DNA from: a virus
DNA length: 56,510 bases
Direction: 5' to 3' (one strand)
IMG/VR virus record: IMGVR_UViG_3300042549_004468
Coordinates: 1 to 56,510 of that record
The position numbers were made by a program, and so were the translations under genes. Shown piece by piece: positions 6,868-35,405 of this stretch; positions within the stretch are counted from its first letter, which is position 1, and each line of letters starts with the position of its first letter. The notes beneath the pieces were generated by a model. That model had not been told where the DNA came from, made no database searches, and saw nothing but the letters and a program-made list of their open reading frames with translations.

Positions 6868-8946
6868 TTAAGATACTGATAATGTTGTTACTGCTGTTGT
6901 CGGTTCTCCTTTATATCTAACTATAACATAAAACTGATCATATGATGAACCATTCATATAAACTGCATTAGCATTACTAACCTCTACTGTGTAAGTAGTG
7001 CCAGATACAGCTCCAGTACGAATACCATAGTAATCGATTGCTGATCCAAATGGATTGGTTCCTGCTGTGTTAGCTGTGATACCTGCTGTTATTAGTCCAG
7101 TTGTGTAGTATGGATCAAATAAACGCGTTACAGTTAAACCATTTTGACCATTAACAGCACTTTCAAAAACAATCGCTACAGACACACCATTTGTAGTTGT
7201 TGTATCATTCCAAGCTACTAGAGTTTGTCCTAAGTTTATTGTAAATGAACCAATCGATGTAGTTCTTTGAAATCTACGTACATAGTATTGGTAAGTGTCT
7301 CCATATCCAGATGGATACCAATACCTTCTTGAGCCACCTGAAGCCACTAAGTAGCCTGGTTTTACTTGAAGTTCCTTGGTTGGTAATGTGCTTGATGATA
7401 CAAAAGCAGTTCCAGTAAATGACAGTATACTATCATCTAATGTAATGCGATTTGCCTCATCTTTAAAAGTATCAGATGTAGCTGTTTGAGTAGTATTGGT
7501 TGGAAAACCAAAGTAAGCTATAGATCCAGATGATGCTGGTTGTCCGTATGCACCTGCATCGTGATAAGAAAATGTTTGAGTATCTGTTGTATATACTCCT
7601 GATCTATTAGAACCACTTGTGGCAACAGTAAAGGTTGATGTGCTTAATCCACTTGCAAATAAAGCTTGAATGTTGGTAGCTCCTGCCACACCTGCATTAA
7701 ACGATAAACTACCAGATAACTTAACTAAGTCAGTTTCAAATGGAATTGTGCTTGTTGCTCTGAGAGTGTTTCCTGTGGAATCAAAAACTGTATTAGCTGA
7801 ACTGATTTGAGCTGATGAATTTATTGTTGCACTTGAACCACTATTTGTTGCAGCTGTTAAAGTTACCAAAGCATCTGCTTCAGTTATAGATGCAATAGTT
7901 GTATTGGCTACATACAGAGGATTAAATATTCCATTTATTTGGCTTCCTACATACCAAGTTGCTGTCCTTAAATAAGGAGCTCCTGATAAAGATCCAGAAG
8001 TTGCTGTAAGTGAGCCACTAGTCTTATTGGTTATAGTTATAGTTTGAGTTGGTAAGCCGCTATTGATAGCTGCTGTTGGAGCCCAAAAGAATCTTTCAAC
8101 TGAGGTGTTTGCTGTGTTGTACACAGGAGATGATCCACTTGCAATCTTGATAGATGCACTAATGTGGTAGTAACCGGATGATGATACGCTTGTTAAAGAT
8201 ACTCCTCCATTATATAATCCTGAACTAAAGATACTTGCAAATTTACCATCTTGATAAGCTGCTGGAATTACAGCTGCGTTTGCTGTTGGAATCTTACCTA
8301 CTGTCAATCCATTTGATGTCGTAAATGAGGATAGTGATAATAGGTTTTGAGATTGTGATGTAATTGTCACACCACCAGTACTTGCACTTTCGTGAGCCCA
8401 GTTAATTGTTCCAGATACATAAAATGTATTTGGTGTACTACCATCAATAATAGTTCCTAAACCAAACAATTGAGCATCTACTGAAGATGATACATTTGTT
8501 GTTCCTGCTGCAACACTTGTATAGGTATTTGCATAGCTAGAGTTGTTGTATACTGTAAGACCAGTGTATAGTAACGATCCAGTTGATGCAAACCCTTTAC
8601 CAACTATATAAGTTACATCTGCTGCAGAGTATCCTTGTGGTACATATCCGGCTATTGTACCGGTACCATTATTGGTAGAAGTTTTTGAAATAGAGCTTAG
8701 TGTCTTGGTATTTGGAGCTGCGTCAGGTGCTGATGCACTTAGTAACCCTGCTACAAAACGTAAAATTTCAGATACGTTTGTTTGTGTTGTAAAGTTATTA
8801 AAGTAAGATCCATTTAAACTAGTTTGCCAAGCGTTTGATGATGGAACACCTACGTTTATATTTGATGAGCTTATAGCTAAACTAGCAGTTAGTGAAGTTA
8901 ACTCTGCACTACTTCCAGATACTATTACTTTTTTCCAAGTTGCCAT
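6868..8946 (-). CDS. Tail-fibre/structural protein with shared attachment N-terminus (692 aa)
   Basis: Large Ser/Thr-rich beta-structural protein. Its first residues, MATWKKVIVSGSSAELTSLT, match the N-terminus of the 1149-residue fibre protein, while the bodies differ. This is the usual pattern of fibre proteins that share a virion-docking segment and vary distally. The C-terminal third (RRYWYPSGYGDTYQYYVRRF onward) is compact and aromatic-rich and could be a distal domain. A TATTTATA box lies 31 bases upstream, and the leader contains ATCAAACAAATAAT rather than a Shine-Dalgarno sequence. Confidence 0.75.
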   Translation of the reverse strand: MATWKKVIVSGSSAELTSLTASLAISSSNINVGVPSSNAWQTSLNGSYFNNFTTQTNVSEILRFVAGLLSASAPDAAPNTKTLSSISKTSTNNGTGTIAGYVPQGYSAADVTYIVGKGFASTGSLLYTGLTVYNNSSYANTYTSVAAGTTNVSSSVDAQLFGLGTIIDGSTPNTFYVSGTINWAHESASTGGVTITSQSQNLLSLSSFTTSNGLTVGKIPTANAAVIPAAYQDGKFASIFSSGLYNGGVSLTSVSSSGYYHISASIKIASGSSPVYNTANTSVERFFWAPTAAINSGLPTQTITITNKTSGSLTATSGSLSGAPYLRTATWYVGSQINGIFNPLYVANTTIASITEADALVTLTAATNSGSSATINSSAQISSANTVFDSTGNTLRATSTIPFETDLVKLSGSLSFNAGVAGATNIQALFASGLSTSTFTVATSGSNRSGVYTTDTQTFSYHDAGAYGQPASSGSIAYFGFPTNTTQTATSDTFKDEANRITLDDSILSFTGTAFVSSSTLPTKELQVKPGYLVASGGSRRYWYPSGYGDTYQYYVRRFQRTTSIGSFTINLGQTLVAWNDTTTTNGVSVAIVFESAVNGQNGLTVTRLFDPYYTTGLITAGITANTAGTNPFGSAIDYYGIRTGAVSGTTYTVEVSNANAVYMNGSSYDQFYVIVRYKGEPTTAVTTLSVS

Positions 8947-13109: not shown

Positions 13110-14717
13110 TTAGTATTGACCTAAGTCAGCTACGTATACTTTTCCGTAGAACTCTGGACGAGTTACAACTTTCGCGTAACGAGTCATAACACCACGACGT
13201 GGTACGAAGTTGTTTGGATCGTACACCAGTGGAGTTAACATTAACGGAATGTATGGAGCATATACAGCACCAGTTTCTAAGAACTGAGTACCACGGAAGC
13301 CCATTAATACAGTGTTTTCTTGCATGTATGGATTCTTGTACACTTCGTAGCGGCTAGTTAAAGCACCTACTTTTTGTACACCCATTGCAAACTTCATCTT
13401 AGTTCCATCACCGTCAGCAGCATATCCTGGGATTGATTCAAGGATAGTAGCGATGTCAGGAGAACAAACTAAGAAGTTAGCACCACCACGTAAAGTTTTA
13501 GCGTGGATTTTGTTTGATACTTTTTGTAATTTAGTTCCCAAAGTTGCGAACCAAGTACCTTGAATGTAAGCTTGACCATTTATGTTGGTGTCAGCAGCAA
13601 ATGTTGCACCGTTCCATACTTGACCTACTTTAGCTGACCAATATTCAGTTGTAGCAGCAGCAGAGATTAACATATCTAAGATCTCTAAATCGATTTCCAT
13701 AGAAACGTATTCAGATAACATAGCAGTTAATTCACCTTCAGCATCTACTGAGTGGTAAGCATTCAAATCTTGAGCAAATTCTGGAGTCCAGCTTGCTTTC
13801 AACTTACGAGTCTTAGCAGTAACTGGAATAGAACGCATTTGGAGTTCAATTTCAGGAATGTTTAAGTTGGTATCTAAAGAACGACCATTTGCGGTTTCGA
13901 AATCGCTACGAGCATCATTAGTAGGTTGGATAGAGTAAGATACTGCATATCCTGTTTGAGTACTACCAGAACCACCAGCACTTGCACTGATAATCATTAC
14001 TAAGTCATTACCACTCTTAACAGAGAATGCAGGGAAATAAGTAGTACCAGCAGTCAAAGTTACAGAAGCAGAAGCAGGGATAAATCCACGAACTGCATAA
14101 GGATCAGCATTTGCACCAGCTCCAGTAAAGAAGTTAGAGAAAGTTAATTTACGGTAGTTAGATAAAGATGCAGTAAAATCACCATCAAAGTTAACATCAG
14201 TAGCAGCAACTGAACCAGTAGTTACAGTTAAGCTAGAAGTAAGGGCAGTATTCATTGAGTAGCCAAAACGACCAGCACCATAAAGACCGTCAGTTGGATT
14301 ACCAGCTGCGTTAGTGATACCTTGCAAAGTGCCAGTTTGGTTTTGTCCTTGTGGAGCGAAGCCAAATGGTTGTTTGCTGTTAGCATATTTAAAATCTAGA
14401 TAGAATACTAGACCTGAAGGCAAGTTCATTGGTTGTACGCTTACAAATTCTTTAGCAGCGATCTCAGCGAAGATACGACGTACTAAAGGTAAAGCAACAC
14501 CATGCCATTGTTCAAATCCAGCACCAGATGTACCAGACATTTCTGCTGATCCTTCTTTAATTAATTGTCTTGCTTGGTTTTCTAAAAGGACTGCAACAGT
14601 TGATTTCTCATTACCGCCTTTTAAACCTTCCATTAGGCCTGTTTTAGACCATTTGGTAATTAACGGCTTCACTTCGTCAGCACGATTTACATTACCCATG
14701 TTTTCAAATAAATTCAT
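13110..14717 (-). CDS. 23: Major capsid protein, gp23-like (535 aa)
   Basis: T4-type major head protein. Recognisable blocks are ALPLVRRIFAEIAAKEFVSV followed by QPMNLPSGLVFYLDFKY, the central RKLKASWTPEFAQDLNAYHS with VDAEGELTAML, and the C-terminal stretch containing GAVYAPYIPLMLTPLVYDPN and RYAKVVTRPEFYGKVYV. An IKE tripeptide at residues 53-55 fits an (L/I)xE site for prohead protease cleavage, about where T4 gp23 is cut (E65). The leader, AAACAAACAAACAAATG, is A/C-rich with no Shine-Dalgarno. A strong terminator follows. It lies directly after the scaffold gene, as in T4. Confidence 0.95.
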   Translation of the reverse strand: MNLFENMGNVNRADEVKPLITKWSKTGLMEGLKGGNEKSTVAVLLENQARQLIKEGSAEMSGTSGAGFEQWHGVALPLVRRIFAEIAAKEFVSVQPMNLPSGLVFYLDFKYANSKQPFGFAPQGQNQTGTLQGITNAAGNPTDGLYGAGRFGYSMNTALTSSLTVTTGSVAATDVNFDGDFTASLSNYRKLTFSNFFTGAGANADPYAVRGFIPASASVTLTAGTTYFPAFSVKSGNDLVMIISASAGGSGSTQTGYAVSYSIQPTNDARSDFETANGRSLDTNLNIPEIELQMRSIPVTAKTRKLKASWTPEFAQDLNAYHSVDAEGELTAMLSEYVSMEIDLEILDMLISAAATTEYWSAKVGQVWNGATFAADTNINGQAYIQGTWFATLGTKLQKVSNKIHAKTLRGGANFLVCSPDIATILESIPGYAADGDGTKMKFAMGVQKVGALTSRYEVYKNPYMQENTVLMGFRGTQFLETGAVYAPYIPLMLTPLVYDPNNFVPRRGVMTRYAKVVTRPEFYGKVYVADLGQY

Positions 14718-16679: not shown

Positions 16680-17282
16680 TTACATTATTGAGATTATATC
16701 ACTGATGAGTGAATTAATTTTTGAATACTTGTTTGTTTGTGTAACTACTTTTACACCTTCGTTGAGGTTATCCATAAAAGCTCCTTGAGTAGATGGATTA
16801 GATACCAAGTCCCAGCATACAATTTCAAAATCGTCTGCTACAACTACCTTACCTTCACCTAACTCTCTCACACTACCCATACCACGGGAACTAATTCCTA
16901 GTCTGATACCAGCTTTTAATAGCTCTTTTGCAATGTTTCCTGATGGTGTAGGTAGAATCTCTATTTTACCCATCAAGTCACTACCTTCCCACCATAAGTC
17001 AATTACATTATGACATACGTTAGATAGATTCACTACTGAAGATTCTGGATGATCCAGTTCTCCTAAAGCTCTCTTTTCAGCTACAAAAGTATTTTTGTAC
17101 TTGTTAGCTTCGCGTTTTAAAATATCCAATGGATACTTTCTTTGGTTTTGATTGAAGGCATCACCTCTTTGCATTACACCACTAACAATCAACTTGCCTT
17201 GATTAGAGCTAATTGATTCGTTAATCTGTTCTGGTGTAAATTGGATTGAACCTATATAATCTACTATTACTCGCTTGTTCAT
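16680..17282 (-). CDS. 21: Prohead core protease, gp21-like (200 aa)
   Basis: Herpes-assemblin-type serine protease fold as in T4 gp21 (peptidase U9/S78-like). Key blocks are ALGELDHPESS (His78) and LGISSRGMGSV (Ser131/Ser132), with a GDAFNQNQRKYP substrate-side motif near residue 40 and the conserved FEIVCWDLVSNPST. It cleaves scaffold, core and capsid proteins after (L/I)xE during head maturation. At 200 residues it is close to T4 gp21 (212). It overlaps the preceding 250-residue gene by ATGA, and is followed by the core proteins and scaffold that are its expected substrates. Confidence 0.93.
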   Translation of the reverse strand: MNKRVIVDYIGSIQFTPEQINESISSNQGKLIVSGVMQRGDAFNQNQRKYPLDILKREANKYKNTFVAEKRALGELDHPESSVVNLSNVCHNVIDLWWEGSDLMGKIEILPTPSGNIAKELLKAGIRLGISSRGMGSVRELGEGKVVVADDFEIVCWDLVSNPSTQGAFMDNLNEGVKVVTQTNKYSKINSLISDIISIM

Positions 17283-18911: not shown

Positions 18912-20777
18912 TTATTCCTCTGGTAAGATGTTACTTTCATCCAACAAACTAGAAGATTCTTGTATGTTTTCTTTTTCAAAAGTCTCGTTTAAAGCTTTTT
19001 TCTTTGCAGTACGCAAACCTTTCATACTATTTAATAAACTTCCATAAGCATCTAAACTGTTCTTTGAACCTTCATATACTTTTCTATTAGTCTTATTGCC
19101 TAATGGATCCCATCCTAGCGGATGTTCATGAGTGCCATGTGTTCCAGGTTCAGTTGGTCTTCCAGCTCCTGGCCAGCCTTTCGGAGGCATTTCGTTAGAT
19201 TTTTCATCATATCCTCTTGGAACACCACCATCACCCTTGTATAGAGAAGCAATATCGTGAGCAGTACCAAATGATTGACCTGTTTTTATAGGGTCATTAC
19301 CTTCTGTTTTAATTTGTTCTAATCTAAATGCTGTCTTAGCATCTTCAATAATTTTATTTTGTTCTTCAAGATATTGCTCTTCTGATAAGTTGAATAAATT
19401 TTCGTAGATCCATGGTTTGCTAAATAAAGCTTTTTCTACCATATCACCTGCTAAGGTTACTTTACTTGTCCACAATTCAACTTTCTCTTTCTCATATACT
19501 GAGGATGGAGCAGTTAAACTTAAACTAAAATCAACTAGGTCTTCATCTGTGAAGCCTTGTGCATACAAGTGTACAATACCTATTTTATACAGCTCAGATG
19601 CAATAATTCTCTGTACACGTTCGATCGTTCTTGCAAAACGAAAATCTTGTGATGCTAGAGTAGCTTTACCTGAGGTATCTTCTTCGTAGCCCAAATAAGC
19701 TTTTGGTATTTTGAGCGATCCTAGTAATCTATTTTTTAGATAGTCAATATCCTGAATGCTGTCAAAGTTAATGCCTGCTAAAGTGTCAATTGAAGTGCCA
19801 CTCTCAGTACCACGTACTGGAAGATAGAAGTCTTCAAGTAGGTTTTGCATGTTGTACTTTAGGTTATAATCTCCAGTTGTAGGATCCATGTAAGGAACCT
19901 TTTTCATTTTGCTTACCATACCTTCCATGAAAGCATCTACTTCATTAGGTGGTATGTTACCAATATCAATTTTAAAAACACGTTTGTCTGGAGCTCTCAT
20001 GATACGATGGATTAGCATCGCATCTTCCATTAGTGTGATTTGTTTCCAAACCTTTCTAGTCGGTTCAATAAGAGCACGTCCATAAGGTAGGAAGTTTGTA
20101 TCTGTTAGTAAACGAAAGTGAGCAATCTCATAATTGTCATAAGTTTGAGCAGTTTCGTTTGTAGAAGCTACGTGTGACTTTGAAGACAGTGCTGTGTAAT
20201 CTCTTTTGAATCGAACCCTTTGTGGATTCTCAGGATCAAAGTTCTCTTCTCTGATCATTTCATAAGGAGATATTGGATCAATACCAGTTACACCATAACC
20301 TTCTGCTATGTGCATGTGTAAGAAGAAATCACCATATTTTACTGTGTTTCTGATCCATGGCCATAAGTTGAATTCAACATTCATTATATCATAGAAAAGA
20401 TTGTGCAATACTTTTTGCACTTTTGGATTGCTTGTTTTAATTGTAAGAACATCACCAAACTCATTCTTAGCTGTACACTCATCGGCATAGATATCTAATG
20501 CAGATGATATGATACTATCAGTATCCATTGCTTCATAATCACGAAACAATTCTAAACGAGTGTATAGTTGTAGTTGTCCTGCTGAATAAGAGTATCCTGG
20601 AATAGCTGAGAATAGTCTAGAAAACCTATCTACTCTACGATTAGTTGCGATATTACCATCCGATTGGACATGCTCTATATCAACAACCTTTATTTGATCT
20701 CCACCTACATTACGAATGATTACATCCGTACTGAATAGTTTACGTAATCTGCTAAATAAAGTTGTATTTTCTGCCAT
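18912..20777 (-). CDS. 20: Portal vertex protein, gp20-like (621 aa)
   Basis: T4-type portal. Recognisable segments are LELFRDYEAMDTDSIISSAL with DIYADECT, VKYGDFFLHM, the IAHFRLLTDTNFLPYGRALI region with EPTRKVWKQITLMEDAMLIH and RIMRAPDKRVFKIDIGN, and PKAYLGYEEDTSGKATLASQ. It forms the dodecameric ring at one head vertex through which DNA is packaged by the terminase. Length is near that of T4 gp20 (524) plus a C-terminal tail of about 80 residues rich in Gly/Pro then charged residues. It follows the terminase gene, with a TATTTATA box 14 bases before the ATG. Confidence 0.95.
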   Translation of the reverse strand: MAENTTLFSRLRKLFSTDVIIRNVGGDQIKVVDIEHVQSDGNIATNRRVDRFSRLFSAIPGYSYSAGQLQLYTRLELFRDYEAMDTDSIISSALDIYADECTAKNEFGDVLTIKTSNPKVQKVLHNLFYDIMNVEFNLWPWIRNTVKYGDFFLHMHIAEGYGVTGIDPISPYEMIREENFDPENPQRVRFKRDYTALSSKSHVASTNETAQTYDNYEIAHFRLLTDTNFLPYGRALIEPTRKVWKQITLMEDAMLIHRIMRAPDKRVFKIDIGNIPPNEVDAFMEGMVSKMKKVPYMDPTTGDYNLKYNMQNLLEDFYLPVRGTESGTSIDTLAGINFDSIQDIDYLKNRLLGSLKIPKAYLGYEEDTSGKATLASQDFRFARTIERVQRIIASELYKIGIVHLYAQGFTDEDLVDFSLSLTAPSSVYEKEKVELWTSKVTLAGDMVEKALFSKPWIYENLFNLSEEQYLEEQNKIIEDAKTAFRLEQIKTEGNDPIKTGQSFGTAHDIASLYKGDGGVPRGYDEKSNEMPPKGWPGAGRPTEPGTHGTHEHPLGWDPLGNKTNRKVYEGSKNSLDAYGSLLNSMKGLRTAKKKALNETFEKENIQESSSLLDESNILPEE

Positions 20778-20808: not shown

Positions 20809-22383
20809 TCAAAGAAGCCAATTAATATCTTCACTATTACCATCAGGCAAATGCATTTTATATGGATCACTTTGTGTAGTCGGTCGATTATAGATAGTTA
20901 CTGTAGACTTTATATTTGCTACTGCCATTCTATTTAATTCAATACCAGCTTGTCTTAATTTAAGTGCTGTATCTCTAACCCACAATCCTTCACAAAAACT
21001 CATAATCAAATCGTCATTATATCCTGATGCTGCTTCTGCTCTTGCATTTCTCCAAATAAAGACATAAAGCTCTTCTAATAACCTCTTACTTCTAATAATA
21101 CAGCTTTTTTCACGTATATACAACTCCATCTTACTAATTGCAAGTGGTCTGGTTTTTTGACTCATTGTAAATCCTGCAACCATGTCTGACTTGTTTGTTA
21201 AGTCATATCCCTTTGTTAAGAATCTATCTGAATCCAATACATCGTTCTTGTAAGTGTAGTATAGGTTTCTATAGCTCCTATCAATAACTTGTTGTATTGT
21301 AGCCCATCCCACATTAGCATTCTCTATAACAAGCAATGCATCGTTGTATTCGGTTCCTACAGCTACTAACATGTTACCATAATCCTTTGTTCCAATTTGT
21401 CCTCTATACTCAGCAACTTGTCTGCAAGATTCAACATCAATAACATGAAATGCAGAATTGTCACTACCATCTCCACGAGCAACGTCAGCTGCAACAATAT
21501 AGTTCTTTGTATAATCTGGCACTTCCCAAACCCATAGATTTCCATCAAAGCCTCTTTTTTCAATTGGCTCTTGTGCATAGGTTTGCATGTAATACGTAAT
21601 AAGTTCTGGTGATACTACTGTATTACCTGATGTGGAGAAGTCACAGTCACATTCTTGTGCTGCAAGTCTTATACCTAATTCCTCATCTTGTCTGTCTCTC
21701 CAAGTTTGATCTCTATCAGGATGTACTTGCCAAGGTAGTCGTTTTGTTTTAAACTTGTTCTCTCCTGCTTCTGCTTTAACCCAAGTCTTATGAAAAAAGT
21801 TACCAGTTCCATTTGGAGTTGATAATATGATACCTTGACCACCAGTATTTAGTGTTTGTTGTAGTGATGCCCAAAGTTCTTCTGCTCCTTCAACGAAAGC
21901 AGCTTCGTCAATAACTACCATTGATAACGCTTCTGAACGTCCTGATGTTCCTGTACTTGCTACTGCCTTGATCTGAGATCCGTTTGATAATCTCATCGAT
22001 AGCTTGTTACTCTCTGTTGTTTTTAGTTTAAGCCAACTTGGTAAATTATCAAACATCACCCTAACCTTTGTTACAAGATTTTTAGATGTGTTTTGATCTA
22101 TCGCTACTACTAATACGTTTTTATCACTGTGGAATAAAATCATCCACAAAGCATATCCTCCAACTAAGGTTGATATACCTAACTGACGAGACTTTAGGAT
22201 AACCATCCTATCATTCTCTTGAAAATCTTCTAAAGTATCTTCTTGGTATGGGTATAGATGAAATGGAACTTTTCCTTTAGTAGGATGTTGAATCATACAA
22301 TACTTCTTCATGAAGTAGGATGCTGATTTAGCACATTTAACGTACTCTTCCTTGATTATGTCTTTAAGACTCTTCTCAGCCAT
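20809..22383 (-). CDS. 17: Terminase large subunit, gp17-like (524 aa)
   Basis: DNA-packaging motor. ATPase domain: Walker A-like SRQLGIST at residues 65-72, Walker B VVIDEAAF with D159-E160, and coupling motif STPNGTGNFF. RNase H-like nuclease domain: Asp300 in AADVARGDGSDNSAF, Glu in VIENANVGW at about 353, and the Asp pair in YNDDLIMSF at about 456. All catalytic positions are present. The arginine-glutamine P-loop is of the T4/SPP1 type. Slightly shorter than T4 gp17 (610). The small terminase subunit was not identified among the neighbours. Confidence 0.96.
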   Translation of the reverse strand: MAEKSLKDIIKEEYVKCAKSASYFMKKYCMIQHPTKGKVPFHLYPYQEDTLEDFQENDRMVILKSRQLGISTLVGGYALWMILFHSDKNVLVVAIDQNTSKNLVTKVRVMFDNLPSWLKLKTTESNKLSMRLSNGSQIKAVASTGTSGRSEALSMVVIDEAAFVEGAEELWASLQQTLNTGGQGIILSTPNGTGNFFHKTWVKAEAGENKFKTKRLPWQVHPDRDQTWRDRQDEELGIRLAAQECDCDFSTSGNTVVSPELITYYMQTYAQEPIEKRGFDGNLWVWEVPDYTKNYIVAADVARGDGSDNSAFHVIDVESCRQVAEYRGQIGTKDYGNMLVAVGTEYNDALLVIENANVGWATIQQVIDRSYRNLYYTYKNDVLDSDRFLTKGYDLTNKSDMVAGFTMSQKTRPLAISKMELYIREKSCIIRSKRLLEELYVFIWRNARAEAASGYNDDLIMSFCEGLWVRDTALKLRQAGIELNRMAVANIKSTVTIYNRPTTQSDPYKMHLPDGNSEDINWLL

Positions 22384-23107: not shown

Positions 23108-23344
23108 TTAGTTCTCCTCTTTAGCCTTGTAGTTGTTATCTACATAGTCAAAGAATTCTTTTTTCTTTGCTGGATCTTTAAAATCTGCTGGTGAGCTGAT
23201 TTTAAATTTATCCATAGCTTTTTTAAAAAACTCTTGATAAGCTGTGTCTTCTTTAAGACGCTTTACAATCATTTTAGTTTTGTTTTCGTTTAAAGCTTTT
23301 TTAACTTCTTCACGAATTGCTTTTCTTAGATTAGCTGTTTTCAT
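23108..23344 (-). CDS. Small basic protein with IRE-type N-terminus (78 aa)
   Basis: Lys-rich helical protein. The N-terminus MKTANLRKAIREEVKKALNE contains IRE and LNE, both fitting the (L/I)xE prohead protease pattern, and resembles that of the 140-residue protein (VIREEVRTVVKEEL). The rest (LKEDTAYQEFFKKAMDKFKI) ends in an acidic tail. Shares one base with the stop of the upstream 111-residue gene. Candidate capsid-internal protein; no named family recognised. Confidence 0.6.
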   Translation of the reverse strand: MKTANLRKAIREEVKKALNENKTKMIVKRLKEDTAYQEFFKKAMDKFKISSPADFKDPAKKKEFFDYVDNNYKAKEEN

Positions 23345-23679
23345 TAGTGCACAATGTTTGTTCTGATTGTTTTCAGAATGTTTAATTTTTGCTCACTTGA
23401 GGCTGCAAACTGTTCGATTACAGTAGATAGCATTTCTACTAACTCTTCTGTACCTACCTCAGCACCACTATCTTTTAGCTTCCTGATGTAGTACCTAGTT
23501 ATCCCTTCTAGTTTTGGATTCAATCCTTGCTCTTCTTCAGGCTCTTCTTCAGGTTCAGGTTGCTCTTCTTGTTCCGGAGCTTCTTGCTCTTCTTCAGCTT
23601 CTAATAACTTAACAATTTCTTTTCTAAGCATTAAGCGTAGAGCGTTTTCGTTTATTTCAGATTTTCTAGTAGTTTTCAT
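23344..23679 (-). CDS. Small acidic protein, possible head-internal (111 aa)
   Basis: Starts MKTTRKSEINENALRLMLRK, then EIVKLLEAEEE with an LLE tripeptide, a 30-residue Glu/Pro-rich linker, and a C-terminal domain (ITRYYIRKLKDSGAEVGTEE) that is helical. The layout of short helix, LxE, acidic linker and small domain parallels its neighbours. It starts two bases after the stop of the 135-residue gene. Function not recognised. Confidence 0.6.
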   Translation of the reverse strand: MKTTRKSEINENALRLMLRKEIVKLLEAEEEQEAPEQEEQPEPEEEPEEEQGLNPKLEGITRYYIRKLKDSGAEVGTEELVEMLSTVIEQFAASSEQKLNILKTIRTNIVH

Positions 23680-23681
23680 TT

Positions 23682-24089
23682 TTATTTCTCAGTTAATTTC
23701 ATAAAATTAGTTGTCTTGGCATCAAAGTTTTTCTTGTCTTTGTTGTCAAACATAATACGTTCAATTTGACCATCCTTTTGCTTCATTAAACAAACAGTTG
23801 CATCAAATTTTTCAAGACCAGTCAGTGTATACACAACACCAAATACTGCATATTTCTCAGTCACTTTTGCATATAGCTTAGCGTCTGCTATAATTAAGTC
23901 TAGCATGCCAAAATCAGTAAGGTCAGCTACAAAGATGCTTTCTTCGCTTTTTACACCTAAGAATTTAAACATTGGTTTGTATCCATGAGCTGCTTGAAAT
24001 TCACGGAAATAGGGGATTGCCATTAATTCTGGAGTTGATTGCTCTTCTTGAGCATATTCTCTTAGTGGCATTAGGTTTATTAGTTTCAT
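23682..24089 (-). CDS. Small protein with MKLxNLxPLxE N-terminus (135 aa)
   Basis: The first residues, MKLINLMPLREYAQEE, parallel those of the next upstream gene (MKLVNLIPLKEVDQD), both ending in LxE. The body is a compact alpha-beta domain (FREFQAAHGYKPMFKFLGVK, VFGVVYTLTGLEKFDATVCL) not recognised. Shared N-termini on otherwise different proteins point to a targeting peptide; in T4, comparable ten-residue sequences send internal proteins into the prohead before gp21 cuts after (L/I)xE. The capsid role is therefore an inference. Confidence 0.65.
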   Translation of the reverse strand: MKLINLMPLREYAQEEQSTPELMAIPYFREFQAAHGYKPMFKFLGVKSEESIFVADLTDFGMLDLIIADAKLYAKVTEKYAVFGVVYTLTGLEKFDATVCLMKQKDGQIERIMFDNKDKKNFDAKTTNFMKLTEK

Positions 24090-24090
24090 T

Positions 24091-24282
24091 TTATTCGTGT
24101 TTTTTTAACTCTGTATATAATCCATCATATAACTTTTTTACTCGCATGAAATCAGCGTCCTCTAAAGTGTCTGATAACCTGTCCATATATTTTTTTATTT
24201 CAGGAGATGCTAGTAGTGATAGAAGATTAGACGTTGGGTCTTGATCAACTTCTTTCAATGGTATTAGGTTTACTAGTTTCAT
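24091..24282 (-). CDS. Short protein with MKLxNLxPLxE N-terminus (63 aa)
   Basis: I place the start at ATG 24282..24280 rather than an earlier in-frame ATG at 24366 inside the upstream gene, because the peptide then begins MKLVNLIPLKEVDQD, matching its neighbour, and lies 19 bases after the upstream stop. The remaining 50 residues are helical and charged (SPEIKKYMDRLSDTLEDADF). It ends one base before the 135-residue start. Candidate capsid-targeted small protein. Confidence 0.6.
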   Translation of the reverse strand: MKLVNLIPLKEVDQDPTSNLLSLLASPEIKKYMDRLSDTLEDADFMRVKKLYDGLYTELKKHE

Positions 24283-24301
24283 AGTCTGTTTTATATAATT
24301 A

Positions 24302-24826
24302 TTACGCTTTAGGCTCAAACCAATCACTACACCATTTACTTGGATCGTTAATTGGATAACCATCATTATCTGTTAATGTCATAGAACCTTTTAAATTTAC
24401 ATAATTTGAATTTGAACATTTATGTATATCAAAATCTTTTATGTAGTATTTGCAAACTTGACAGCTAAAGCCATCCTGACTATACATATATGGAATATGC
24501 TTTTCTAAGCTCTCTTTTATTAAGTCTGCTAATTTTATTACACCTTCTTTTGCATTTATTTTTTTAGCAGCTGCTACTGCTTTGTTATATGCTTCTGAGC
24601 CTTTAGGAGCTGGTTTTTCACCACGAGCTTGTTTAGCCCGTATGTTTGCCCATAATCCTTTTGATTCCTCATCAATTGGCTCCAAACCTTCTTTTGCATT
24701 AATATGCAAAGCAGCTAAATACTTTCTCAAGGCTTCTTTATTGCCAGCAGTATGACCTACTAACTTTCCAGTGTCTTTCTTATACACTGCATACTTGTCT
24801 CCTTGTTTTTTAACTTTGTATGGCAT
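24302..24826 (-). CDS. Modular small protein with Cys cluster (174 aa)
   Basis: Three parts are visible. Residues 1-45 (YKVKKQGDKYAVYKKDTGKL, then AGNKEALRKYLAALH) form a small domain of a type seen in many phage proteins. Residues 50-95 (KGLWANIRAKQARGEKPAPK) are a second short module common in phage head-related proteins. After VIKLADLIKESLEK comes a Cys-rich tail with CQVCKYY, HKCS and KWCSDWF, probably a zinc or metal site. NAKEG occurs twice at the module joints. The fusion of modules suggests a domain-shuffled accessory protein; enzymatic function is not apparent. Confidence 0.65.
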   Translation of the reverse strand: MPYKVKKQGDKYAVYKKDTGKLVGHTAGNKEALRKYLAALHINAKEGLEPIDEESKGLWANIRAKQARGEKPAPKGSEAYNKAVAAAKKINAKEGVIKLADLIKESLEKHIPYMYSQDGFSCQVCKYYIKDFDIHKCSNSNYVNLKGSMTLTDNDGYPINDPSKWCSDWFEPKA

Positions 24827-24827
24827 G

Positions 24828-25433
24828 TTATGATTCTAAATGACTTGATAATACTCCAGCAATTCCAGTAGCGTAATTAGATAAATGATGTGTATCTTCT
24901 GATGTTAGTTTTGTTTTTTTCTTTGTGAAATCCAAACCTAATGAACCGATAAATTTACCTTCAAAGCTTTTAATTGCAAATATGTAACTTGATTTGCATC
25001 CAGTGTCTTCTGCTATATACTTTAATCCGTGAGTAGATATTGTTTCATCCTTATAGTCCGGTATTTCAATTATATCATGCTCTAATAGGTAGTTTATTGA
25101 TTTGCTAAATAAGTTTACAGGAATGTTTTGAAAGTTGTTTTGTACAGATCCTACTCCAATATTCACTGTCTCGTATATAAGACTGAACTTAGCTATTGAC
25201 TTTCCAGTTGGATAAAAGTGACCACCATTGTGAAATTGCGTTATCCAAACTCGATCAGCTTCATATTCGTTTTTAATAGAATCTAACTTGTCCATTACTT
25301 TTTCACTAGTCTGTAGTGCTTCAGTAAGCATGTCTGGTTTTTTCTTACTTTTCTCTATACGATGCTTGAAAAAGAGTACCGCTATTGGTCCTGCTAATCC
25401 TGTTATAAATGATGCTATTACTTCTGGTTGCAT
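24828..25433 (-). CDS. Membrane-anchored GAF-like protein (201 aa)
   Basis: An N-terminal hydrophobic segment (FITGLAGPIAVLFFKHR, residues 9-25) is followed by a short coiled coil and a GAF-like domain beginning WITQFHNGGHFYPTGKS and continuing to GSLGLDFTKKKTKLTSEDTH. Such TM-GAF proteins occur in various phages with unknown role; a sensory or membrane-associated lysis function has been only guessed. It starts two bases after the stop of the zinc-ribbon gene. The domain call rests on pattern recognition. Confidence 0.6.
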   Translation of the reverse strand: MQPEVIASFITGLAGPIAVLFFKHRIEKSKKKPDMLTEALQTSEKVMDKLDSIKNEYEADRVWITQFHNGGHFYPTGKSIAKFSLIYETVNIGVGSVQNNFQNIPVNLFSKSINYLLEHDIIEIPDYKDETISTHGLKYIAEDTGCKSSYIFAIKSFEGKFIGSLGLDFTKKKTKLTSEDTHHLSNYATGIAGVLSSHLES

Positions 25434-25435
25434 AA

Positions 25436-25942
25436 TTACTTACTTTCTCTGTAGTCTTCTACTTTTTTGGTTATGTCTTCGATAACTGAGTCTGTAATCT
25501 TTTTTATTTCCGTTTGATCTGCATCTCTCCACTTTTCGACTTGACCATTTTCAGTAACGTGTGCTTTTGCAACCCCTTCTTGATTATAATCTTCCATATA
25601 GCTGATTAGATCTTTTACAAAGCTATCAGCATTAGCCATTATTTTTGCTTTTTCATACTCTGCCCACTTACCTGCTTTTTGTATTTCGTGGTCTGCATCA
25701 ATTACACAGTTAAAGCAAGTTTTGTGGATTGCCCACATCTTTTCATCTAAGTAGTGTTTCATAGATCCATTGCATTTTGGACATGCTAATGGAGTTGAAA
25801 ACTGCTTACGTGCCTCATCCATTTTAGACACTGTTCTTTTGATACCATTCTTAATAGTCCATAACTTTCCACGCTCAGTCCAAACATCACCTTCGATGTG
25901 CTTAACGTGTTTTTCTCCTATCGTAACATGTAAATTTTCCAT
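25436..25942 (-). CDS. Zinc-ribbon protein, conserved in T4-like phages (168 aa)
   Basis: A four-cysteine zinc ribbon at residues about 54-79: CPKCNGSMKHYLDEKMW then HKTCFNC. The second half is helical and acidic (ADSFVKDLISYMEDYNQEGV). Similar proteins with CPKC...CFDC occur in T4-like phages of aquatic bacteria, with unknown role. It is in the same operon as the 628-residue enzyme and small proteins. It may bind nucleic acid or support assembly; the sequence does not say which. Confidence 0.65.
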   Translation of the reverse strand: MENLHVTIGEKHVKHIEGDVWTERGKLWTIKNGIKRTVSKMDEARKQFSTPLACPKCNGSMKHYLDEKMWAIHKTCFNCVIDADHEIQKAGKWAEYEKAKIMANADSFVKDLISYMEDYNQEGVAKAHVTENGQVEKWRDADQTEIKKITDSVIEDITKKVEDYRESK

Positions 25943-25947
25943 TAATA

Positions 25948-26262
25948 CTATCGTGTTTGTAGTTTGTACTTATCAGCGATAAATTGAACGTGCTTATCAA
26001 ACTTACGTAAAGCTCTGCGCAGTTCTAATCTAACACCTTCAGCTAATTTTGCACTTTCTTCACTATCACCTACACCACGAAAGAATTCTTTTCCTCCTGT
26101 TGATGAGATGCTAATTGTAAAGCTAAATTCTGGATTCCCAGCTTCACCAACTTGTTTGAAGTTTGAATCATAATGCAAAGTCATGTTGGTATTAGGAGAG
26201 GTAGCAATTGCTTGCTTTTTCTCTTCTAATCTTTGCGTTTCTAGTAATTTTTTTAATTTCAT
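25948..26262 (-). CDS. Small hypothetical protein (104 aa)
   Basis: N-terminus MKLKKLLETQRLEEKKQAIA resembles the MKLxxL starts of its neighbours and contains a possible LEE site. The middle is beta-rich (PEFSFTISISSTGGKEFFRG) and the C-terminus is helical and basic (RLELRRALRKFDKHVQFIAD). It starts four bases after the stop of the 628-residue enzyme. No family recognised. Candidate member of the capsid-targeted set. Confidence 0.6.
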   Translation of the reverse strand: MKLKKLLETQRLEEKKQAIATSPNTNMTLHYDSNFKQVGEAGNPEFSFTISISSTGGKEFFRGVGDSEESAKLAEGVRLELRRALRKFDKHVQFIADKYKLQTR

Positions 26263-26266
26263 TTTA

Positions 26267-28153
26267 TTAGAATTTTAGATATCCGAGTATCTGGTTTATT
26301 GGAGCAAATGCTCCGGTAAGTTTGTATAGTTTTTCATTGTACTTAAATACAATTCCTTCTGTAGGCATGATAGCGCTGAATCCACCTATGTCTTTTAAGC
26401 GAGCTAATTCTCTTGTTAAGAATTTTAGTGCTGCTGCTCCATCGTCCGTATTGTCTGTCTTCGAGAAGGCTTTAATTTGCTCAATTGAACTTCTCAAATC
26501 ATTTTTCATTTTCCTAATGCTATTGTTAGGATTTAATGATACTAAATTTTCAATATTTCCAAGAGTGTAAACTCCTAGCTTTAAAAATAAGTTTTCAATT
26601 GGCTTACCTGCAATCTTTTTTTGATCGTTGTAATCTTTCTTATCAAAGTTGATTACCCAATTTTTAAACTCTTCATTTTGAATGCCATCACGGATTACTT
26701 TGATATTGGTTTCTTTGTTTCCAAAAGACCATCTATTAATTAACTGCATCATTGTGTTTTCAGGCACAGTGTACTGAAATCCTTTTGCTATTTGGCTAAT
26801 ATAGTTTCTCCACCAAGCTTGAAAGTAAAGACCCAACTTATCTGTAGGTTTTAGCTTGTATGTAGCCATTATAGTTGCAATCATCTTACTCAGCTCTTCT
26901 TTTTGAGCTTTGTATTCTGCAGACTTTCTGATTGTGATAGGATCTGTTGTTCTAATCTCGTAAGTCTTTTGAGTTTCTGCTTGTACTTGACGTATAGCTC
27001 CTTGTAACTGTCTTACTGCTTCGATATCTTCACCAACTACATTACCTGCTTTATCATACTCTTTAATGTGGTGAAGTCTCAATTGAGAAGCACCATAAGG
27101 AACTACATTAGCTGTTGGAGGATAAAGTACTTCTAAATTTACAAATTTAGCTCCATTTGCAAAAAACTTTTGCTTTTGAGCTGTGGATAGTTTGTTGATA
27201 GCCATTTCCAAATCCTTCATTGCTTCTGCAAATGCTTCTTGGATAGGACCTCTACCTGCAAATGTGTCTTCAACTTGTTTTACTGTCAGAGAGTTGGCTC
27301 CAAAATCTTTTACTTGTCCTTTGTTTCTTGCTGCTCTTACTTGACCATCCTTATAAGTTACCATTAGATTTTGTCCATCTAATTTCTCTTGTGCTGATTC
27401 TAATGTACCACCTAATGCAGCATTAATCATGTTTTGGATATCTTTAAACGTAAGATCGTAATCTTCGTATGGATGTGCAAGATGTCCTGCTGCTCCTCCT
27501 TCTAATAGCATCATAGATTCTGATATTGCTCCTGTCTTCTTTGTTAGAGTGTTGTAGATTGTACGAAGAATGTTTTCAGGTATTGTTGATGGATAGTTTG
27601 TTTTAAAGTTTTTGTAATCCTTCTTTGCTAAGTCTTGTCTTAATATTGAAGCACTAACACCTTTACCATTTGATCCATCTGTTCTTCCAGTATATAGTAA
27701 TGGTCTTGTGTTTAGAGGTAGTTCAATTACATTTACACCGGCTTTGTGATATTTAGATCCTTCTGCATGACCTTCTACGAACTTTTTAACACGTTCGTAA
27801 TCTTTACCTTTGCTACTTGCTGCTAATGCATAAGTTCCTGGTTTAGCTGTTTCAATATATTTGTAGGCTGCTAGTAGTGGATTATCTTCTGCTACTTTTT
27901 GTACTGTTATTCCTCTAGTACCTATTAGCAACTCATTCCATACTGCAATACTCTGTTCTCTCGTAATACCTTCACGTTCTTTTGGACCAATTAAGATCTT
28001 TACTTCAGAAACATTTGGTAGTTTTGAATATTTTACTGCCAATTCCAAATGACCTCCATGAGGTGGCTTGAATCCGCCAGGTAACAATACAATAATGCCT
28101 GTTTCAGCTTCTTGCAATATACCTTCTACTAAATACTTAGTTAAATCATTCAT
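26267..28153 (-). CDS. Bifunctional HxGH nucleotidylyltransferase / ligase-like nucleotidyltransferase (628 aa)
   Basis: Domain 1 (about 20-200) is a nucleotidylyltransferase of the NMNAT/cytidylyltransferase superfamily: GGFKPPHGGH with HGGH at 32-35 and GVSASILRQ at 165-173 in the place of the ISSTxxR motif. Domain 2 (about 215-628) has ligase/capping-type motifs: KLDG at 257-260 (motif I, Lys257), NLEVLY with Glu341 (motif III), and EGIVFK at 599-604 (motif IV), then KLYK. It resembles phage DUF6267-type proteins with KWDG. The N-terminus MNDLTKYLVEGILQEA looks like a T4-type capsid-targeting sequence with LVE and LQE. The start is ATG 28153; a TTG one codon earlier is less likely. It overlaps the preceding gene by 8 bases, and a TATTTATA box lies 15 bases upstream. 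Confidence 0.8.
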   Translation of the reverse strand: MNDLTKYLVEGILQEAETGIIVLLPGGFKPPHGGHLELAVKYSKLPNVSEVKILIGPKEREGITREQSIAVWNELLIGTRGITVQKVAEDNPLLAAYKYIETAKPGTYALAASSKGKDYERVKKFVEGHAEGSKYHKAGVNVIELPLNTRPLLYTGRTDGSNGKGVSASILRQDLAKKDYKNFKTNYPSTIPENILRTIYNTLTKKTGAISESMMLLEGGAAGHLAHPYEDYDLTFKDIQNMINAALGGTLESAQEKLDGQNLMVTYKDGQVRAARNKGQVKDFGANSLTVKQVEDTFAGRGPIQEAFAEAMKDLEMAINKLSTAQKQKFFANGAKFVNLEVLYPPTANVVPYGASQLRLHHIKEYDKAGNVVGEDIEAVRQLQGAIRQVQAETQKTYEIRTTDPITIRKSAEYKAQKEELSKMIATIMATYKLKPTDKLGLYFQAWWRNYISQIAKGFQYTVPENTMMQLINRWSFGNKETNIKVIRDGIQNEEFKNWVINFDKKDYNDQKKIAGKPIENLFLKLGVYTLGNIENLVSLNPNNSIRKMKNDLRSSIEQIKAFSKTDNTDDGAAALKFLTRELARLKDIGGFSAIMPTEGIVFKYNEKLYKLTGAFAPINQILGYLKF

Positions 28154-32219: not shown

Positions 32220-35200
32220 CTAACAATTTATATAGCTAAAATCATCTTTACGATCTATAGTTATTATATTGTCAACCATATCTCTAACAACATCAATGTG
32301 AGATATTACTAAACTGAACCTGAATACATCCTTCATATATGTGAATAAAGTGTGCATTGAGTTAAGATTGCTACTATCTAACACTCCCAAACCTTCATCT
32401 AGTGCAATGAAGTCAGGCTTTGGTAGGTTAGTAATCTTAATCAAAGCTATACGAAGTGCTAAAGATGATAAAAAACGCTCCATTCCAGAGCTTAACTCTA
32501 GTGGCCACTTTGCATCATCATAGCAAATAAATACATTTATATTCTTTCCATCTGTCTCTAGTTCAACTGTGAAGTCAATGACCTGGTTTAAGATGTTATT
32601 GACATATTGTTGTATGTATGGAACAGCTTTGCTTATCATTACATATGGTATGCCATCTTTACAAACAGCTTTGCAATATAGGTCGTAGGCTACTTGTCTA
32701 TCAGCCAACTCTTGCATATGTCTAATAGATTCATTACACTCATTAATAACCTGTTCAGCTACCCTTATTTTAGCATGAAAATCCTTTACTGTATTGTTAG
32801 CTTTGGATAGATCTATCTTTTTTAATGCTATTTTTCCTTGTATATCTTTGATTTGAACGTGGATTGCTTTGTTGTTACTAAGTATTGCCACATTGTCATT
32901 ATACACCTTTATATCCCCTTTAATCTTGTCTATTTTGTGTTTTTGGATATCTATATCTTTCTTGATACGATCATAGGCATTCTGCAATCTCTCTGCTGCT
33001 ATCACAGCTTCTTTATGGTTGTTGAGTGCTATCTGTAGTTTGTTAGCTTCTTCCTGTATAAACTTATTGTTTTCGATAAACTCTGATACTTTACCTATTT
33101 TTTGCAAAAAGTCATGTACCACCTTCTTGTCGTTCTCTAACTCACCCTTAGTGTCAATAGCATCCTTTACAAATACGTTTGAAGTACAATACTTGCAATT
33201 AGGATCATACTCGTGTTTTTCAAGTTTTTCCAGCTTTGATAGCTTGTTTGATATTGTAAGTTTCATTGTGCTGAGTGTGTTATCTAACTCACTCTTCTCT
33301 TGTAACTTTGCGTTGTACTCCTTGTATAGGTTGTTATCAAAAGAACTTTTAGTCTTATCTAAATTCTGCGTAGCTTCATGTAAAACTATCTGCTCATCTT
33401 GTAATTGCAAATGTGCTGTTGAAGCATCTTGACCCAGTTTAGCTAAGTTGTTTTCTGCTAATTGCAAATCTTTTTCTAACACTACAATATCCAAACCATC
33501 AGCTGTACAAGGTTGTAGTTGCTTGTTTAAATCAAGCTGTTGTTCACTTAATATGTGTAAGTCAGCTTCTGCACTATCTAATACCTTTTGAGCTTCTTCA
33601 TGCTTACCTTCGTTAGTTTCTTTAGCAGTTTCAGCATCTCCTAATTTAGTCTCAAAATCTTGCTTTTGGTACTCTTCTAACACTATTACAGCTGTTCTAT
33701 TCTCTTTGTTAGCTAACTCATATAGTGAGTCAAATATTTTCAAATCTAAAAAGTTAGCTAATAAATCCTTTCTTTCACCCTGAGTCTTATCGATAAAGTT
33801 TGAGTTATTACCTTGTAGTGATAGTGCAGTTAAAATGAAGTCATCAAAGGTTCCTACATAGGATTGAATAATCTTGTCTGTATCCCTTCTTTGCTCACCA
33901 TTCAAGGATATCTTATTGTAGTCAGCATCTATGTACCAAAAATCTATATCTACACGAAGCTTACCAGCTAATGGTCCTTTTAGGTATCTTGTAGCTTTTT
34001 TCTCTACAAAATAATCTAAACCACCTAACTCAAATTGAAACTTACACCAGAAGCCATCCTTCTTTCTATTCAATACTTGCTCAGCTTTGCTCGCTCTGAA
34101 AGAGTGATCAAACAAACAAAAGCAAAGAGCATCTAAGATGGCTGATTTACCTGCATGATTAGGTGCAAACAATCCACATGTTCCATCCAGCTTTTCAAAG
34201 TTTATTGAGTTGCCTTCACCATAACTAAACATATTATCAAACTCAAACTTCTTTGGTTTCCAAACTACGTTACGAGCTGATTCTCCTTGGTTTAAAGTTT
34301 GATTAAGTGTTGTATTGATTTTTAGTATGGATTCCATCAACTCTGCATCAACATCGAACTGCTGTAAGTAATCCGTTATCAATTGGTTTTGGTGTTGAAT
34401 GTTACGTACATCTCCTTGGTGAAGAGATTCTCCAAATAATTGATTATCAGTAGTGCTTGTGTTCTTATCTAACCTCTGAACAATTACATCACTATTACGA
34501 TATAGTTTTCTAATTGTTGCAAGGATTCTTTTTACTTCTGCTGCTGAAGTGTTTTTAGTTCTTAGTCGTACGTTTGTTTTAGAGTTGATTGGTAAGTTAT
34601 CAGGCAATACTCCTGAATCTACATCTAATGTATAGAATCCATATGGATTTGGAATATCAAAAAACTCATACTTAATGTCTCCTTTAGTTCTCAAATCACA
34701 AAGAGCATAACCATGTCCTTCAAAAGATTCTCCAAAGTTTTGCTGTACCAATGATCCTGGATAGAAAATGATTGGTTCGCTCTTACATAGGACTTGTCTT
34801 TTGTGAATGTCTCCTAATAAAACTAAATCAAAATTTGCAAAAGTATCCCAATCTAAACCATGTGACAACACTAAACCACTATCAACTTTACTATTAGCAA
34901 TAGTACCGTGATACATAGCTATTGTGTGTTTGTATTCTTTATTTTGTGGTAATTTGTCAGCTGTTATGTAATCTGTTACTGGATCAAGTAAAGACATGAC
35001 ACTTATAGCTACGTCACCAATTTCGTATACTCCTGAGTTGCGTAGGTAGAAAAGATTAGGATGATTGTTAGCTTCTATTATTGGAGTTAAAGCATCTAAT
35101 CTGTTGTTGTTATTTAGATTTGTGTCATGATTACCACAAATAACTATTGTAGGTCTTCTTGTAGCCAATTCATTAAACAGGTATGAAGTCATGTTAATTA

Positions 35201-35405
35201 ACTCAGGACTCATGTCAGTTTTAGCATGAACAATATCACCTCCAACAGTAACAATACTATTGTCAGGTAACTCATCAACAGCTACAAGTAATTTTTTAAA
35301 CACCTCTTTGAACTCAACATGTCTTTTCCAGTTTCGCAAATGGATATCTGCAATATGGAGTATGTGATCTACTTGGGTTATTTTATTTTTAATTTTGTTA
35401 ATCAT
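32220..35405 (-). CDS. Fused Mre11/SbcD nuclease and Rad50/SbcC ATPase, gp47-gp46 fusion (1061 aa)
   Basis: Residues 1 to about 365 are an Mre11-type phosphoesterase with all metal-binding blocks: DIH (20-22), GGDIVH (55-60), GNHD (91-94), YHG (165-167), GDIH (198-201). From about 380 a Rad50-type SMC ATPase starts: Walker A APNHAGKS (414-421), long coiled coil, CKYC zinc hook (C737, C740), returning coil, signature LSSGMER (971-977), Walker B FIALDEG with D1003-E1004. In T4 these are separate proteins gp47 and gp46, which process DNA ends for recombination-dependent replication. All catalytic residues are kept and the frame is uninterrupted. The gene is coupled to the primase by an ATGA overlap. 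Confidence 0.95.
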   Translation of the reverse strand: MINKIKNKITQVDHILHIADIHLRNWKRHVEFKEVFKKLLVAVDELPDNSIVTVGGDIVHAKTDMSPELINMTSYLFNELATRRPTIVICGNHDTNLNNNNRLDALTPIIEANNHPNLFYLRNSGVYEIGDVAISVMSLLDPVTDYITADKLPQNKEYKHTIAMYHGTIANSKVDSGLVLSHGLDWDTFANFDLVLLGDIHKRQVLCKSEPIIFYPGSLVQQNFGESFEGHGYALCDLRTKGDIKYEFFDIPNPYGFYTLDVDSGVLPDNLPINSKTNVRLRTKNTSAAEVKRILATIRKLYRNSDVIVQRLDKNTSTTDNQLFGESLHQGDVRNIQHQNQLITDYLQQFDVDAELMESILKINTTLNQTLNQGESARNVVWKPKKFEFDNMFSYGEGNSINFEKLDGTCGLFAPNHAGKSAILDALCFCLFDHSFRASKAEQVLNRKKDGFWCKFQFELGGLDYFVEKKATRYLKGPLAGKLRVDIDFWYIDADYNKISLNGEQRRDTDKIIQSYVGTFDDFILTALSLQGNNSNFIDKTQGERKDLLANFLDLKIFDSLYELANKENRTAVIVLEEYQKQDFETKLGDAETAKETNEGKHEEAQKVLDSAEADLHILSEQQLDLNKQLQPCTADGLDIVVLEKDLQLAENNLAKLGQDASTAHLQLQDEQIVLHEATQNLDKTKSSFDNNLYKEYNAKLQEKSELDNTLSTMKLTISNKLSKLEKLEKHEYDPNCKYCTSNVFVKDAIDTKGELENDKKVVHDFLQKIGKVSEFIENNKFIQEEANKLQIALNNHKEAVIAAERLQNAYDRIKKDIDIQKHKIDKIKGDIKVYNDNVAILSNNKAIHVQIKDIQGKIALKKIDLSKANNTVKDFHAKIRVAEQVINECNESIRHMQELADRQVAYDLYCKAVCKDGIPYVMISKAVPYIQQYVNNILNQVIDFTVELETDGKNINVFICYDDAKWPLELSSGMERFLSSLALRIALIKITNLPKPDFIALDEGLGVLDSSNLNSMHTLFTYMKDVFRFSLVISHIDVVRDMVDNIITIDRKDDFSYINC

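Follow-up and report, generated by a model that had tools for sequence, protein, structure and literature searches.

A phage protein joining a HIGH-superfamily nucleotidyltransferase to a ligase-like domain, a candidate cargo polyprotein for processing by the prohead protease

Two described phage systems provide the frame for the protein analysed here. For the polyvalent proteins of phages and conjugative elements, processing into units by embedded metallopeptidases has been proposed (Iyer et al. 2017, PMC5512222). In phage T4, the prohead protease gp21 cleaves after L/I-X-E (PMC9026906). The gene considered here belongs to a 56.5-kb linear virus record, analysed over its whole length of 56,510 nucleotides and hereafter referred to as the window, and it encodes a 628-residue protein in which two different nucleotidyltransferase-type domains are joined in one chain. 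From sequence comparison and structural models, we favour the reading, at a probability of roughly 0.6, that the product is a virion-packaged 'polyvalent' cargo polyprotein, which the prohead protease would cleave in trans and whose enzymes would be ejected separately with the DNA.

The gene, its locus and its family

The gene was delimited as follows:

26267..28153 (minus strand): gene for the two-domain protein, an ORF of 628 codons plus stop

The ORF starts with an ATG at 28153 and ends with the stop codon at 26267-26269, and a TTG one codon upstream of the ATG accounts for a listed 629-residue version. All motif positions of the original prediction, including Lys257, were recovered in this frame; the prediction had given no strand, and the ORF lies on the minus strand. 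Relatives of the protein share 47-97% identity with it. The ORF sits among the late genes of a T4-like phage, of which PHROG models recognise the capsid protein, the prohead protease, the portal and the large terminase. Together with a conserved small neighbour, the relevant genes are:

13110..14717 (minus strand): major capsid protein (phrog_138)
16680..17282 (minus strand): prohead (head maturation) protease (phrog_207, E 2.9e-55)
18912..20777 (minus strand): portal protein (phrog_213)
20809..22383 (minus strand): large terminase (phrog_2)
25436..25942 (minus strand): small Cys-rich protein of zinc-ribbon appearance, a conserved neighbour with homologues in the loci of relatives

Wherever a locus extends far enough, the large terminase is almost always no more than about 5.6 kb from the gene, and in relatives the portal is also close by. 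Comparison of TerL places the window phage nearest, among cultured phages, to Flavobacterium phage immuto (56%), followed by Microcystis phage Mel-JY01 (55%). Homologues of the Cys-rich neighbour were detected in 85 loci, in many cases 5-20 bases downstream of the gene for the two-domain protein. This small protein carries CPKC/CFNC and is a frequent neighbour, being also present at positions 7480-8124 of locus L014 and adjoining the corresponding gene in a 484-kb phage. Elsewhere in the window, residues 11-249 of a 1061-residue ORF (32220-35405, minus strand) form a metallophosphoesterase region and residues 291-1059 an SbcC-like one, with both gp46/gp47-type nuclease halves in a single chain. 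An ORF at 4446-4970 (minus strand), starting with YEIHHIDGNHNNNSIENLMCVS, has the appearance of an HNH endonuclease and sits between tail-fibre-like genes. The PADLOC defence models gave no match.

The C-terminal, ligase-like domain was detected in at least 586 IMG/VR stretches by a domain-profile scan of viral contigs, and the analysis therefore concerns a common phage group. The architecture was mapped in 46 relatives. Among the relatives read, the ligase domain occupies the C-terminus of longer proteins, which span 600 to 1581 residues where complete or nearly so. The exception is LR756500, which encodes a stand-alone ligase-domain protein of 421 residues adjoining a gene that ends in a HIGH nucleotidyltransferase domain. 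The modules that follow the N-terminus and precede the ligase domain vary, the HIGH nucleotidyltransferase being nearly always present; the variable ones include a P-loop kinase (Zeta_toxin/AAA_33), Nudix, ParB-like and unnamed modules, as well as a HAD-looking phosphatase stretch (DFDDT) and a match to 'Zn_protease' (PF05618). The HAD-phosphatase-looking module (FDFDDTLVHT) was observed between the nucleotidyltransferase and ligase domains in L009 (10001-12745), L024 and L023. Pfam scans of the window protein and of a set of relatives revealed no metallopeptidase, ArdC-N or MuF hub domain, and no embedded peptidase was recognised in the window protein.

Two nucleotidyltransferase-type domains in one chain

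The protein comprises two domains, both confidently modelled by AlphaFold (pLDDT 92):

27539..28099 (minus strand): HIGH-superfamily nucleotidyltransferase domain, residues 19-205 (HGGH and GVSASILR motifs, PHROG, AlphaFold, Foldseek)
26270..27490 (minus strand): ligase-like covalent nucleotidyltransferase domain, residues 222-628 (motifs, conservation, AlphaFold, Foldseek)

In domain 1, the HxGH motif is found as HGGH at residues 32-35, and GVSASILRQ at residues 165-173 includes an ISSTxxR-type motif (GVSASILR, residues 165-172). PHROG cytidyltransferase profiles matched within residues 21-211 (E 4e-6 and 6e-4), and a nucleotidyltransferase profile built from 19 sequences retrieved phosphopantetheine adenylyltransferases (PPAT) from the PDB sequence set (E 2.8e-5). 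Foldseek returned NadM as well as PPAT and NadD enzymes, the latter two with TMt values of mostly 0.4-0.67. The window protein on its own did not match PF01467 (CTP_transf_like), the cut-off of which several relatives exceed. On the AlphaFold model, the structural matches to PPAT and NadD and the profile search, domain 1 is a Rossmann-like nucleotidyltransferase of the HIGH superfamily, as originally proposed, and is predicted to be catalytic. HxGH is intact, or replaced by TGAH, in the clade of the window protein; most sister-clade proteins (L013, L028, L068 and other giants) have GPHH, GIHH, AKHH or similar in its place, and the V-S-G-T-x-M-R motif is often retained in these giants. Because HxGH is altered in most of the sister clade, nucleotidyltransferase activity may vary from one clade to the other.

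Domain 2 carries the motifs GHLAHP, EKLDG with Lys257, ARNK, NLEVLYP, EGIVFK and KLYKLTG. KLDG is found at residues 257-260, NLEVLYP at 339-345, EGIVFK at 599-604 and KLYKLTG, which fits motif V, at 608-614. Across 51 aligned ligase-domain sequences, the invariant positions are E45-K46-x-D48-G49, A64-R65-N66-K67, E130 (the glutamate of motif III), E388-G389 and K400-x-T402-G403 (domain numbering), along with the upstream HxxHP motif. In the AlphaFold model, the motif I strand (residues 252-257) ends at K257, and motifs III, IV and V are arranged in order on strands (NLE in 336-343, EGIVFK in 600-605, KLYKL in 608-612), with a helical insert of about 200 residues between motifs III and IV. The isolated domain was modelled with a pLDDT of 92.6.

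When domain 2 was compared with the PDB using Foldseek, the best 33 matches were all RNA or DNA ligases, T4 Rnl1 and an RNA ligase of Palaeococcus pacificus being foremost, at E about 1e-3 at best and TM-scores of 0.14-0.35, which are low, so that catalysis is not assured. BFVD matches comprised the protein's own family, the phage RM378 RNA ligase and a protein of Pseudomonas phage PA5oct, and single-sequence searches with the domain retrieved almost nothing. Pfam RNA_ligase was weakly matched by 29 of 48 members (E ≤ 0.1; best E 0.0012), and the window domain scored 13.2 bits against a PF09414 gathering cut-off of 27 bits, so that the relationship is claimed at the superfamily level only and not as PF09414 membership. 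The ligase-like nature originally proposed for this half found support in the model, the invariant motifs and, with a loose fit, the ranking, and we conclude from sequence and model that domain 2 represents a new, remote family of the covalent nucleotidyltransferase superfamily, with strand joining as its putative activity. The same low TM-scores to any ligase, the unique GHxxHP motif with the long helical insert, and the fact that no OB or RNA-binding partner domain was recognised would also suit a KxDG domain that acts as a capping-like or protein-modifying NMP transferase instead of an end-joining ligase. This assignment can be true together with the packaging steps proposed below, which it leaves unchanged; we regard it as unlikely in view of the 33 ligases at the head of the ranking, where the only capping enzyme among the matches listed stands at rank 43 (E 0.87), and of Pfam RNA_ligase being the only family that many members match.

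Some candidate relationships of domain 2 were discarded. Profile matches of the domain to PDB sequences (eS6, GntR, DarA) were weak chance matches (E 0.01-0.3), and a possible second ligase copy in the giants, considered on account of a weak DNA_ligase_aden match in L060, yielded no second significant domain match. The suggested link to DUF6267 found no support: no PF19782 match over the cut-off was obtained in Mel-JY01, LR756508 or LR756500, while two cyanophages scored 274-309 bits, and hhalign gave a probability of 0.3 between DUF6267 and the ligase-like domain in a comparison of low power, since only two DUF6267 sequences were used. The order HLEHxED...KWDG...EGFV of DUF6267 looks parallel to that of domain 2. 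A literature search found no paper on DUF6267, 'cytitidyltransferase' or virion proteomics of such proteins.

Protease-type sites and the packaging model

Outside the two domains, the protein has two short segments with candidate cleavage sites (the arrow denotes the putative cut):

28100..28153 (minus strand): capsid-targeting-like N-terminal segment, residues 1-18 (MNDLTKYLVEGILQEAET), with LVE↓G (residues 8-11) and LQE↓A (residues 13-16)
27491..27538 (minus strand): residues 206-221, a disordered linker that contains ISE↓S (residues 210-213) and LLE↓GG (residues 216-220) as candidate cleavage sites of the prohead protease

Model confidence is lower in the N-terminal segment (pLDDT 63-68) and drops below 50 at the domain junction (residues 207-222). 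In the entire protein, (L/I)xE followed by G, A or S occurs at residues 10, 15, 212, 218 and 306. The protein starts with MNDLTKYLVEGILQEA, exactly as originally described, and LxE↓(G/A/S) at the start recurs in many relatives (13 of 21 N-terminus/nucleotidyltransferase segments); one clade (L040, L053, L078) begins directly at the nucleotidyltransferase domain and has no targeting segment. In a run of small genes at 23108-26262 (minus strand), several N-termini resemble the start of the two-domain protein, for instance MKLINLMPLREYAQEEQ, MKLKKLLETQRLEEKK and KLLEAE, and on this similarity these genes may possibly encode further internal head proteins.

The distribution of these sites was assessed in 46 non-redundant relatives against composition-preserving shuffles: linkers contained 105 [LI]xE[GAS] sites versus 22.4±4.6 in the shuffles and domains were depleted (14 versus 44±6.7), figures that overstate independence because the shuffles ignore common descent and many sites are homologous. 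None of eight control motifs had a comparable linker excess, two being mildly high. [LI]xE followed by K/R/D/N, a control that retains the LxE core, gave 57 versus 33±5 in linkers, and [LI]Ex[GAS] gave 34 versus 22±5 and was over-represented in domains as well. With the first 25 residues and the ligase junction left out, 48 sites remained versus 15.3±3.9, with a maximum of 31 in 1000 shuffles. Spread over different junction types is a better argument than the shuffle figures: the excess spans many of them, such as NMN/DDGP (14 of 20 linkers versus 1.9 expected), KOW/KIN (3 of 4 versus 0.2) and LETM/LIG (6 of 6 versus 0.9), these being working names of modules. All 79 members examined at the ligase junction have L or I as P3; their P1 is E in 58 and M in 20, the latter with an LLLMGG-type junction devoid of the P1 glutamate. 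In Mel-JY01, whose protein is also fused, the candidate site reads IAE↓GGLGGHMNHP. The idea of a universal cleavage site at this junction is weakened by the methionine, and some giants have no strict site at some junctions.

The capsid propeptide of the window phage shows the linker signature at two places, LME↓G (30) and IKE↓G (55). Conserved GL(L/M)E↓G sites are shared by the capsid propeptides of this phage, immuto and Mel-JY01, and all three have one more site that is of the (L/I)xE type or nearly so (LIKE↓G, IVSE↓A, LISE↓A), which suggests a preference like that of T4 for the prohead protease of this lineage.

Sites of the gp21 type, present in the linkers as well as at the N-terminus, and the location by the terminase, portal, protease and capsid genes lend strong indirect support to the idea of capsid targeting and injection. 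As no embedded peptidase is recognised and the sites are of the (L/I)xE type, the head protease is the candidate processing enzyme. The gene would be expressed late, together with the head genes, and the short N-terminal segment would bring the protein into the prohead core. During head maturation, the T4 gp21-like prohead protease encoded in the same window would act in trans, removing the targeting segment by a cut after (L/I)xE, at LVE↓G or LQE↓A, and separating the two enzymes at LLE↓GG (and/or ISE↓S). The freed adenylyl/cytidylyl-transferase and lysyl-NMP ligase-like enzyme would then leave the head with the DNA. At the onset of infection, their most plausible roles would be to restore a nucleotide cofactor (NAD-like) and to mend broken ends of RNA (tRNA), as suggested by the ligase-like enzyme and by the kinase, phosphatase-looking and Nudix modules of the relatives.

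The protein could also be packaged and remain uncut, as one bifunctional injected enzyme of the NadR or Pnkp-ligase fusion type from which the targeting segment alone is removed. Such an enzyme would agree with the co-occurrence of both domains in nearly all members with enough sequence, with the split genes of LR756500 remaining neighbours, and with methionine in place of glutamate at P1 in 20 of 79 junctions. We give it a small chance, as the junction is disordered with a conserved LxE↓GG, the site excess extends to other junction types, and many relatives have unrelated modules between the two domains. The original suggestion that both halves serve one reaction was not supported: the protease-like sites in the disordered linker and the separate genes of LR756500 indicate that the nucleotidyltransferase and ligase-like domains may act apart.

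Packaging itself would be dispensable if this were an ordinary late cytoplasmic RNA-repair or nucleotide enzyme, with an N-terminus and LxE motifs explained by structural coincidence or by a helix cap exposed to solvent. A search for virion proteomics of this family found none, a PA5oct relative bears no mass spectrometry label, and one clade is devoid of the N-terminal segment, all in keeping with an unpackaged enzyme; it is nevertheless distinctly improbable, given that the exact gp21 signature is in excess in linkers and depleted in domains, that control motifs do not match this pattern, and that head genes adjoin across nearly all loci.

If the cargo polyprotein reading is true, the phage would employ its capsid-maturation protease in much the way that RNA viruses process their polyproteins, and one late gene would supply several pre-loaded enzymes acting before any phage gene expression. 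The free shuffling of modules would be explained, since any domain between two LxE linkers would get released. An RNA-repair-like enzyme would be present in the first minutes of infection, when anticodon nucleases and NAD-depleting defences act, and LxE↓(G/A/S) in linkers would be a simple sequence rule for finding injected cargo of uncultured phages. We give even odds to the broader proposal that a class of T4-like aquatic phages has cargo polyproteins of enzymatic modules and cleavage-signature linkers, whose maturation would free an injected enzyme kit with the RNA-ligase-like enzyme as its invariant C-terminal member. The module set proposed for them, a claim we hold to be evenly balanced, would include HIGH nucleotidyltransferase, P-loop kinase, HAD, Nudix, ParB-like and ligase modules.

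Comparison with known systems

Domain 1 shares HxGH and SxSxxR motifs and a Rossmann-like fold with PPAT/CoaD, NadD, NadM and NadR; NadM is fused to a Nudix domain and NadR to a ribosylnicotinamide kinase, whereas the window nucleotidyltransferase is joined to a ligase-like domain. Domain 2 has the motif I, III, IV, V order and the lysine-centred core of ATP-dependent RNA ligases (T4 Rnl1, the Palaeococcus pacificus ligase, T4 Rnl2), from which it differs in the III-IV insert of about 200 residues and GHxxHP, with TM-scores of 0.14-0.35 and a score below the PF09414 gathering threshold. The stand-alone, 446-residue EST35_0228 of phage PA5oct, found as a BFVD match, has aligned EKIDG and EVLYGKIPNVIEYD motifs; the relation is weak (hhalign E 0.0044, probability 8), and EST35_0228 is without a targeting segment. 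Annotated as 'hypothetical' (L096, 4908-6248) in cultured Pseudomonas jumbo phages, it appears to be a stand-alone, remote ligase-like relative. It lies within a cluster of MS-labelled structural proteins and is itself not so labelled. Its neighbour gene, considered as a split nucleotidyltransferase partner, was rejected, as no HIGH motif was seen.

Gp183 of Flavobacterium phage immuto, the phage with the nearest TerL, resembles the candidate cargo protein in its gene position upstream of the terminase and in its HIGH nucleotidyltransferase domain. It differs in having no ligase domain and in its Pol-beta-like N-terminus and HExxH stretches, which bring it closer to the classic metallopeptidase polyvalent design. 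This protein (L098, 5132-7855; 907 residues, annotated NadR) has two such stretches and a sub-threshold match to Pfam Peptidase_M91; the replacement of the ligase domain by HExxH stretches fits an exchangeable design.

With the polyvalent proteins (PMC5512222), the candidate cargo protein and its family share large, variable multidomain enzymes, a late head-gene location, proposed injection with the DNA, zeta-toxin-like kinase and ParB-like domains, and proposed processing into units. The difference is that an embedded metallopeptidase is the proposed processing enzyme of the polyvalent proteins, whereas the sites of the window protein fit a prohead protease in trans; a search of passages of PMC5512222 found no combination with an RNA-ligase-like or HIGH nucleotidyltransferase domain. 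Since it has no hub domain, the cargo protein would work like a polyvalent protein and is not filed as a classic hub-domain member. With the T4 internal proteins and Alt (PMC9026906), it has in common an N-terminal targeting-like segment with LxE, a gene among the head genes and presumed injection; the T4 cargo consists of single proteins trimmed at their termini, whereas the window protein also has sites between its enzymatic domains.
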